Shown: in pieces, positions 10,431 to 12,618 of the stretch
Position numbering within the stretch: position 1 is the stretch's first letter
Layout: the number at the start of each line of letters is the position of its first letter
Assembly (NCBI GenBank): GCA_947258705.1
Contig: CAMYJA010000017.1
Span: forward strand, 1-37,842
DNA from: an uncultured Hyphomicrobiaceae bacterium
Lineage (GTDB): Bacteria > Pseudomonadota > Alphaproteobacteria > Rhizobiales > CAMYJA01
Reading direction: 5' to 3'
DNA: 37,842 nt
Made by a program: the position numbers and the translations under genes
The notes under the pieces: model-generated
Databases searched by the model: none
The model's input: the letters and a program-made list of their open reading frames with translations, nothing else
Told to the model about the DNA's origin: nothing

Positions 10431-10451
10431 CCTTGAATTTCGCCCCTGATC

Positions 10452-10480
10452 TTCTCAAAACGACCTGATCAGGATATGAT
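10452..10480 (+). promoter_or_regulatory. Promoter with operator-like palindrome, first tandem gene
   Basis: TTCTCA (10452-10457) and TATGAT (10475-10480) are 17 bases apart. The spacer holds the palindrome CCTGATCAGG (10464-10473). The same three elements recur at identical spacing before the second paralogue, which argues that they are functional. The palindrome sits where a repressor would block RNA polymerase. Confidence 0.55.
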
Positions 10481-10486
10481 GGCTTT

Positions 10487-10509
10487 CAGTGAACGTCACT
10501 TGTTCGCTG
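10487..10509 (+). promoter_or_regulatory. Leader hairpin, first tandem gene
   Basis: CAGTGAAC (10487-10494) pairs with GTTCGCTG (10502-10509) through eight pairs including one G-T wobble, around a 7-base loop. A matching hairpin precedes the second paralogue, where the wobble pair is T-A. It lies just downstream of the likely transcription start and could be a leader structure or a second operator. Confidence 0.4.
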
Positions 10510-10535
10510 AATGATAACAATTATGGGGGGATCTC

Positions 10536-10895
10536 ATGGATCCGCAACAATTATTCTATTTTATTGTTCTGATTGGTACGCTTCTGGTTTTTATATCGGA
10601 TTCCATCGGCAATATGCTTTCCTTCGGCAACCGGGTCGCAAATGCGCTCACGACGGCCGTCGTCTGGGGCGTTCTCTTTATCGCTCTTTATTTCGTTCTG
10701 GGCGCCATCGGCATTCAGCTGGCTTCCAGTCTTCAGGGCCTCATGATTCTGACGGCAAAAGGTATTCTTATCGTTTTCGTCGCGGATATGATCGGCAATG
10801 CCATTGCATTCGGCAACCGCTTCATCAATGCGCTGGTAACGGCCATTGTCTGGGCGGGTATATTTGTCGCTCTTAAAGTCTACGGGATAGCCTGA
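10536..10895 (+). CDS. Small four-helix membrane protein with internal duplication, copy 1
   Basis: I do not recognise a named family. The 119-residue product is almost entirely hydrophobic, with four probable membrane helices (about 6-22, 38-57, 66-84, 99-115). It is an internal tandem duplication: residues 14-51 align without gaps to 76-113, with 22 of 38 identical. Each half reads G-x-L-x-V-F-x-x-D-x-I-G-N, then F-G-N-R-x-x-N-A, then T-A-x-V-W. The D-IGN-FGNR-NA segment is the polar link between the two helices of each half, so both links face the same side of the membrane. There is no signal peptide. The start is supported by GGGGGG about 6 bases upstream. The next gene is a close paralogue with its own copy of the promoter region. 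Function is unknown; a paired-repeat channel, transporter or scaffold is possible, but that is guesswork. Confidence 0.8.
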   Translation: MDPQQLFYFIVLIGTLLVFISDSIGNMLSFGNRVANALTTAVVWGVLFIALYFVLGAIGIQLASSLQGLMILTAKGILIVFVADMIGNAIAFGNRFINALVTAIVWAGIFVALKVYGIA

Positions 10896-10965
10896 TCAAT
10901 CCGCAAAAGCTCATCAGAACTGATTATTTCTAACACTTTGAAAATACTTGTATTTCAAAGCCATC

Positions 10966-10994
10966 TTCTCAAAACGATCTGATCAGTTTATGAT
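10966..10994 (+). promoter_or_regulatory. Promoter with operator-like palindrome, second tandem gene
   Basis: TTCTCA (10966-10971), a 17-base spacer containing CTGATCAG (10979-10986), and TATGAT (10989-10994). The palindrome starts 13 bases after the start of the -35 element, exactly as in the first copy, while surrounding bases have drifted. Confidence 0.55.
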
Positions 10995-11002
10995 GTTTTT
11001 CC

Positions 11003-11021
11003 GTGAACAGCGCTTGTTCAC
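11003..11021 (+). promoter_or_regulatory. Leader hairpin, second tandem gene
   Basis: GTGAAC (11003-11008) pairs perfectly with GTTCAC (11016-11021) around a 7-base loop. It is the counterpart of the hairpin at 10487-10509. Confidence 0.4.
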
Positions 11022-11051
11022 TCTACGACAACATTAATTGGGGGACGACTA

Positions 11052-11432
11052 ATGGACGCGCAACAAACATTCTATTTCATAATACTAATCGGCACGCTTC
11101 TGGTATTCATATCGGATTCCATCGGCAATATGCTCTCCTTCGGCAACCGCATCGCAAATGCCTTCACCACGGCCATCGTCTGGGGCATTCTCTTTATCGC
11201 TCTTTATTTTGTTTTGGGATCCATCGGCATGGAGCTGGCTTCCAGTCTTCAGGCTCTCATGATAACCGCGGCAAAAGGCATTCTTCTTGTATTCGTCGCG
11301 GATTTGATCGGCAATGCCATTGCATTCGGCAACCGTTTCATCAATGCGTTGGTGACAGCCATCGTATGGAGCGGTTTGATGCTCGCCTATGAGTTCTATG
11401 GCAAGGTCATCCTCACCGGTCTTACCGCCTGA
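11052..11432 (+). CDS. Small four-helix membrane protein with internal duplication, copy 2
   Basis: Paralogue of the preceding gene, about 80% identical over 119 residues by hand alignment. Most differences are conservative (V/I, I/L, A/S), and the D-IGN and FGNR-NA motifs of both halves are unchanged (residues 22-35 and 84-97). The C-terminus differs and is seven residues longer (126 in total). The gene starts 516 bases after copy 1, and the duplicated unit includes at least 85 bases of upstream DNA. GGGGGA lies about 7 bases before the ATG. The conservative substitution pattern suggests that both copies are under selection. A strong hairpin at 11534-11573 closes the unit. Confidence 0.8.
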   Translation: MDAQQTFYFIILIGTLLVFISDSIGNMLSFGNRIANAFTTAIVWGILFIALYFVLGSIGMELASSLQALMITAAKGILLVFVADLIGNAIAFGNRFINALVTAIVWSGLMLAYEFYGKVILTGLTA

Positions 11433-11533: not shown

Positions 11534-11573
11534 AATAAGGCCTTGCGCTCACTTCGAAGCGCAAGGCCTTATT
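11534..11573. terminator. Bidirectional terminator hairpin
   Basis: A perfect 16-bp inverted repeat (arms 11534-11549 and 11558-11573) around the 8-base loop CACTTCGA. The arms end in AAGG/CCTT and AATA/TATT, giving T-rich 3' ends on both strands. It lies between the convergent membrane-protein gene and the minus-strand gene ending at 11632, so it can serve both. Confidence 0.7.
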
Positions 11574-11631: not shown

Positions 11632-12501
11632 CTATTCGCCGCGTGAGCAATCGATGTTGACGGTGAATGTCGCGCTGTTGTTGGCCTCGTTGAGTTCCTC
11701 GATCTGGTTATAGGGATCGACGACCGCGTAAACCGTTACATTGACATCGTCCGAGCGCGCGCCGGTTGTGCAGATCTTGCTTGAAGATGTGCTGTAATCC
11801 TCGACACCAAGTTCATCCAGAACTCTGTCGAGGCCCTTGATGCTGATGGTATTTCCCTCTGCATAGGGGGATACCTCCAGATCCTTGGCGCGGTAATAGG
11901 CGCGGAGCGCACGGCTTGTTTCGCTGCCATACGATCCATCGACACCGTATTTGGGCAGTGAATCGTCCCGCCATTCGATCAGGAAGATCTGAAGCGCTTT
12001 GACGCGGCGTCTGACGACATCATATTCATCGTCGTCATCGTCGTCATAGCGGGAAAAACGCCTGTTGGCATAATCGATCTTTGGCGGCTTGTTGAAAAAA
12101 CGGCATCGCTTGATCTTGTTCGTTCCGATCTCGATGCCAATCCCCTTCTGATCGAGCGGTGCAAGAGGACTTGTCAGCCTTTTCCTGTCCAGGAGATCGA
12201 TATTCTGCGGGACGTAAACGACCAGCGTCCAGTCCTCGCTTTCTTTCGCCTGGCCGAGATTTTCGAGCACCGCAGCAGCTGAACCGCCGAATTGTGCCGG
12301 TCCCGTGCCGATATTCTTGATGGCAATGGTTCCCTTCCACAACGCTTCGCCCTTTTTGCAGCTTCCCTGCAAAGGAATGCGCGAGTCATTGGTGATGACA
12401 AGATCCGGCAGCTGCTGCGCCCGCACGGTTTGCGGCAGCAGGATCAGACCGGCTAACAGAAATACATATGCAATATAATTCTTACGACTGAACGTCCCCA
12501 T
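11632..12501 (-). CDS. Exported CARDB-like protein with nested peptidoglycan-binding-like domain
   Basis: A 289-residue secreted or periplasmic protein of unknown role. I choose ATG 12501 over the open start at 12543 because GGGGAT precedes it and the signal peptide then begins properly (basic start, hydrophobic core, cleavage near VRAQ, residue 29). Residues about 32-70 (LPDLVIT, then TIAIKNIGTGPA) match the opening strands of a CARDB adhesion-like domain, and residues about 254-283 (VDPYNQIEELNEANN) match its closing strands. Between them is a segment resembling a PG_binding_1 unit (about 166-207: VKALQIFL, YGVDGSYGSETSRALRAYYR). An acidic run of six Asp precedes it (about 153-158). Four cysteines, C48, C133, C244 and C285, flank the insert and could form disulfides. 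It may attach to peptidoglycan. It is separated from gmk by a terminator. Confidence 0.7.
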   Translation of the reverse strand: MGTFSRKNYIAYVFLLAGLILLPQTVRAQQLPDLVITNDSRIPLQGSCKKGEALWKGTIAIKNIGTGPAQFGGSAAAVLENLGQAKESEDWTLVVYVPQNIDLLDRKRLTSPLAPLDQKGIGIEIGTNKIKRCRFFNKPPKIDYANRRFSRYDDDDDDEYDVVRRRVKALQIFLIEWRDDSLPKYGVDGSYGSETSRALRAYYRAKDLEVSPYAEGNTISIKGLDRVLDELGVEDYSTSSSKICTTGARSDDVNVTVYAVVDPYNQIEELNEANNSATFTVNIDCSRGE

Positions 12502-12618
12502 GATATCCCCTATTTGTTCTAGGAAGTTATCGCTATCATTCAATAGTAAACGGGGAAATTCAAGGGGATGGAAGCGTTAAGAGTTAATACTGACGCCTGT
12601 TTGCAACACCCGTTTTTC

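Follow-up and report, generated by a model that had tools for sequence, protein, structure and literature searches.

Predicted membrane hairpin proteins of Hyphomicrobium and related bacteria: an undescribed family, doubled twice in one uncultured genome

Closest described systems

Subunit c of the F-type and V-type ATPases is a two-helix hairpin that also exists as a fused four-helix duplicate. The gene pair described here, from a 37,842-nt stretch of DNA of an uncultured Hyphomicrobiaceae bacterium (the whole stretch analysed, referred to as the window), shares this evolutionary pattern, in which a hairpin is duplicated and fused into four helices. However, the Asp of the present hairpins is close to the loop of helix 1, whereas that of subunit c is mid-membrane, in helix 2. 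The pair has no ATPase genes beside it, and the ATP synthase subunit c profile matched neither the two proteins nor any of 20 family units. NqrD/RnfA-type subunits of Na+-pumping NADH oxidoreductases gave the best structural match in VIA-align (NqrD, Z 7.2, rmsd 4.0, 112 aligned), a score within the range that unrelated helical bundles also reach. The same type of subunit was retrieved by Foldseek at E 1.4, yet there was no sequence match and no nqr or rnf genes adjoin the pair. Another likeness, restricted to the proposed role, in which a membrane protein encoded close to a bactofilin would couple cytoskeleton and cell wall, is to LmdC, the membrane protein coupling bactofilin BacA to peptidoglycan in Hyphomonas neptunium and Rhodospirillum rubrum (PMC10945521). 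LmdC is bitopic and carries a large periplasmic M23 peptidase, whereas the hairpins lack any enzymatic domain and are nearly devoid of soluble parts, and the two have no sequence relation.

The original prediction had placed the two proteins in no described family, and profile searches of Pfam, NCBIfam and PHROGs together with PDB sequences yielded no convincing match for either. Searches with 20 family units against Pfam, NCBIfam and PDB sequences were no more convincing. The Pfam, NCBIfam and PHROG matches of proteins and units were scattered, nearly all below cut-off or with E > 0.001. The PDB sequence matches were single helices of GPCRs and were rejected. PgaD (TIGR03940), the NCBIfam model closest to protein 1 (E 0.0046), was likewise discarded; it scored 16.9 bits where the cut-off is 31.45, the match spans only 26 residues, from the loop into the first part of helix 2, and no pga genes lie near the pair. 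Foldseek retrieved nothing below E 0.001, the best values being 0.76 (PDB) and 0.13 (viral models). The family is new, and its architecture of hairpin duplication plus fusion has precedents.

Repeat structure and order of the duplications

Gene 1 (10536..10895, + strand) encodes a 119-residue predicted membrane protein with two hairpin units (residues ~1-59 and 66-119), recognised as two domains by the unit profile (1.7e-23 and 1.7e-21). Its tandem paralogue, gene 2 (11052..11432, + strand), encodes 126 residues and also contains two units, detected as two profile domains. Both reading frames had been placed correctly in the original prediction, which gave about 80% identity between the products; the proteins are 81% identical. 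Each had also been read as two copies of a 38-residue unit, and the comparison of halves bears this out. In protein 1, 22 of 38 ungapped positions are identical, and the half-versus-half local score is 126, against a mean of 28.8 for shuffled sequences (sd 5.5, maximum 53 in 1000; z 17.6); protein 2 gave a z of 17.1 against shuffles.

From an alignment of 12 two-unit proteins, AF2 modelled protein 1 as four helices (residues 3-28, 33-57, 66-90 and 95-117) arranged in two hairpins, with a pLDDT of 87.4 and a pTM of 0.81, consistent with the helical membrane protein originally proposed. A single-unit relative was modelled as one two-helix hairpin (pLDDT 80.8, pTM 0.51). With two helices per unit, a two-unit protein would have both its loops on one side of the membrane. 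The loop Arg, by the positive-inside rule, suggests that this side is the cytoplasm, although Lys residues nearer the opposite end blur the assignment.

The motifs D-x-IGN and FGNR-xx-NA are present in all four units of the window, as had been noted, and each unit matches profile A1 (G-N...F-x-N-R-x-x-N-A-x-x-T-A) at 1.7e-21 to 6.4e-23. Across 70 aligned units of the family, the motif residues Gly (87%), Asn (90%), Phe (91%), Arg (87%), Ala (90%) and Thr (86%) are well conserved. The strict conservation claimed for the loop holds for G-N...F..R..A and fails for the Asp of D-x-IGN, which is kept in only 66% of these units and is missing from several single-unit members. Outside the window and L100/L101, most fused forms have the Asp in one unit and Gly or Ala in the other. 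We observed the one-sided arrangement in L034, L036-L038, L042, L048, L053, L056, L059, L060, L062, L065, L103 and L104; the unit that keeps the Asp is the C-unit in all of these except L059. A one-sided Asp suggests a division of labour between the units of fused proteins.

In a tree of 64 units, the two N-units of the window pair with each other (99.5/99), as do the two C-units (71/97), and a constraint joining the N- and C-units of protein 1 gave a p-AU of 0.042. The internal duplication is thus older than the gene duplication, so that the two nested rounds originally proposed are supported, with the module doubled within the gene first and the whole gene second. A single origin of all fused forms was not rejected (p-AU 0.16-0.29 on 43 columns), while parsimony required 9 changes; repeated independent fusion across the family is suggested by these data rather than proven, since 43 columns are too few to tell one origin from several. 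The two copies differ by a dS of 0.54 and a dN of 0.11 (NG86), a ratio of ~0.21, indicating purifying selection on both genes ever since their split and agreeing with the selective constraint expected for them.

The DNA alignment places the duplicated segment at ~10432-10857, copied to ~10947-11374, and so includes ~100 bp before each start codon. The region upstream of gene 1 (10432..10535, + strand) contains a promoter-like site, TTCTCA-17-TATGAT (10452-10480, + strand), and its copy upstream of gene 2 (10947..11051, + strand) contains a matching one (10966-10994, + strand); both were found in a promoter scan as consensus matches only. As the duplication spans this stretch, each gene has its own copy of the promoter-like site. 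Both upstream regions also share GTGAAC...CTTGTTC (10499-10521 and 11013-11035). In copy 2 this shared sequence lies between the promoter-like site and the start codon and makes the near-palindrome GTGAACAgcgcTTGTTCAC, perhaps an operator.

Relatives and gene neighbourhoods

A plain protein search in the order retrieved relatives at E values down to 6e-14, and unit profile A1 matched 31 of the 397 sampled genomes (15 of 141 genera). We detected 34 loci in a scan of named genomes using an alignment of single-unit relatives as query; they were mainly from Hyphomicrobium, with others from Rhodomicrobium, Filomicrobium, Hyphomicrobiales MAGs and one Ponticaulis MAG. A pattern scan of the named genomes with protein 1 alone retrieved no relatives. 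In the class-wide sample (385 genomes), the window's own genome was the sole match of the profile search. The only candidate outside the class, G900 in the phylum-wide sample of 299, was a doubtful match (E 2.6e-4) in a 350-residue frame and was judged to be due to chance. In the grouping of the genome set, the window's family comprises one genome only; relatives in the order and at the named loci show that the hairpin extends beyond it. The outcome that would have refuted the original prediction, a lack of homologues beyond this genome, thus did not occur. On sequence grounds, this is a real, undescribed hairpin family that is almost confined to one alphaproteobacterial order, in Hyphomicrobium and its kin.

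The commonest relative is a single-unit hairpin protein of 60-90 residues, and many of these have a Pro/Thr/Ala-rich tail. Fused two-unit proteins were found in several Hyphomicrobium, in Filomicrobium-like MAGs, and in L056, L059 and L100/L101, and tandem fused proteins in the window, the most duplicated form among those found. The single unit being the usual form, with fused and tandem forms also occurring, the hairpin is the basic module. Most relatives are encoded by one single-unit gene per genome. Pairs are therefore not the rule, and the earlier idea of a heterodimer is not supported as one. In one Filomicrobium MAG (L061), single-unit genes stand in tandem (1083-1358 and 1514-1741), possibly as an intermediate towards fusion. 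In another (L063, 8001-8387), an in-frame TGA close to a Trp position of relatives interrupts a fused two-unit gene, which would leave two separate hairpins or else reflect sequencing error or decay. L112, L113 and L117 form a divergent branch with an altered loop, e.g. GNFINVIFNGNP; genus f33 has the divergent branch in most of its sampled genomes, together with unlinked CARDB/peptidoglycan-binding genes.

The gene order in the window is rsmA, the hairpin pair, a convergent CARDB gene, gmk and yicC. The CARDB gene (11632..12543, - strand) encodes a predicted secreted protein (Pfam CARDB, 1e-5), and a perfect 16-bp inverted repeat resembling a terminator (11534..11573) lies between it and the hairpin pair. 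A PG_binding_1 domain was detected in the mid-region of its homologues (2e-13 in L033, 6.9e-7 in L058). The corresponding region of the window protein can be aligned to this domain, although it is no longer recognised as one by score, and the protein carries an acidic insert, DDDDDDEYD. A CARDB/peptidoglycan-binding gene is adjacent and convergent to a hairpin gene in three families, namely the window, L033 (MnTg02) and L058 (MAG IP29b). The hairpin gene is single in the latter two, whose CARDB proteins are 34-36% identical to that of the window, and the outer flanks differ between the three loci. Full-length homologues, counted without the many proteins that match PG_binding only, occur in 13 of the 397 genomes of the order, and a hairpin was detected in 11 of these 13 (Fisher 7e-12 by genome and 7e-6 by genus, uncorrected for shared ancestry). 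Beyond the three adjacent cases, genomes with both have the two genes far from each other or on separate contigs. A search of the literature for CARDB together with peptidoglycan binding and Hyphomicrobiales returned nothing relevant.

Bactofilins are the other recurrent neighbours. At two chromosomal sites in Hyphomicrobium, in different lineages, a convergent bactofilin gene lies ~0.3-4 kb from the hairpin gene. With an identity of only 28-35%, these two bactofilins are different paralogues; by a rough estimate, two such sites among twelve would arise by chance with a probability of 0.004. Of the 31 hairpin genomes, 29 have bactofilins; the window's genome encodes four, all on other contigs and none in the window. 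A paper on Rhodomicrobium bactofilin makes no mention of such a neighbour.

Possible functions

Our best reading, which we favour tentatively, is that the hairpins form a small inner-membrane scaffold of the cell envelope. A hairpin module with a core of ~40 residues was doubled in one gene to give, in the predicted fold, four helices with their polar loops on the same side, and the whole two-unit gene was then doubled along with its promoter region. The hairpins may pack together by way of their conserved polar loop region, D-x-x-G-N...F-G/S-N-R-x-x-N-A, into oligomers in which fusion and tandem copies would put more linked hairpins into each assembly. Such an assembly might anchor or organise envelope parts, possibly in physical contact with the CARDB/peptidoglycan-binding-like protein in the window lineage and with bactofilin in some Hyphomicrobium. 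LmdC is a precedent for a membrane protein that links bactofilin to the wall. Several points stand against a scaffold: the hairpin and neighbour genes are not co-transcribed, being convergent; most hairpin loci adjoin neither kind of gene; other genomes with both hairpin and CARDB/peptidoglycan-binding genes have them unlinked; and the hairpin loop offers a cytoskeletal protein very little length to dock on.

Duplicated hairpins commonly form channels, and a small channel or carrier is a possible, if rather unlikely, alternative, in which two or more hairpins, or two four-helix proteins, would make a pore whose ion path is lined by the membrane-embedded Asp and the conserved Asn and Arg of the loop; an asymmetric assembly would then follow from gene fusion and duplication. 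The conserved polar residues within or beside the helices fit a pore, as does the one-sided Asp of most fused forms other than those of the window and L100/L101, which recalls asymmetric fused transporters. However, this Asp is not family-wide, being absent from several single-unit members; the hairpin loci have no constant neighbour among transporters, permease partners or known substrate genes; and no structural match was significant. The gene neighbours lean towards an envelope scaffold over a pore or carrier, while sequence cannot separate the three.

About as unlikely as the channel is a small membrane protein acting without a partner, which would tune membrane properties or the stability of another inner-membrane complex, for instance under stress, with copy number setting dosage. 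Stand-alone genes for small hydrophobic proteins in many different neighbourhoods are what such a modulator would predict, and so is the duplication of the gene together with its promoter region. However, the loop is conserved beyond the needs of generic membrane packing, the conserved CARDB/peptidoglycan-binding neighbour points to a partner, and only one of ~50 family genes had an EcfG-type general-stress promoter pattern in its upstream region. The scaffold, the channel and the partner-free modulator are not far apart in likelihood. An origin as a holin-like or toxin-like protein, from phage or a toxin-antitoxin system, is very improbable. It would account for the small size, for scattered sub-threshold matches between Pfam holin families and some of the units (best 7.5e-5, in one member) and for a weak PHROG match (0.059). 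On the other hand, Pfam holin families matched neither window protein at E up to 10, relatives sought in viral contigs, plasmids and phage records were absent from all three, and no viral fold match was significant. The window neighbours rsmA, gmk and yicC are housekeeping genes, and long-term purifying selection on both copies also argues against such an origin.

A more specific version of the envelope scaffold, which we regard as doubtful, would make the hairpins a transmembrane rivet between cytoplasmic bactofilin and periplasmic peptidoglycan-binding proteins, with valency tuned by duplication through single, tandem single, fused-pair and tandem fused-pair forms. The family provides a natural series in related bacteria of one membrane hairpin at copy numbers of one, two (tandem or fused) and four, suited to tests of how duplication and fusion enlarge membrane proteins. 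The relatives of Hyphomicrobium have an unusual budding and stalked growth. If the envelope reading is true, the hairpins would add an uncharacterised small membrane component to the cell wall and cell-shape machinery of these bacteria.
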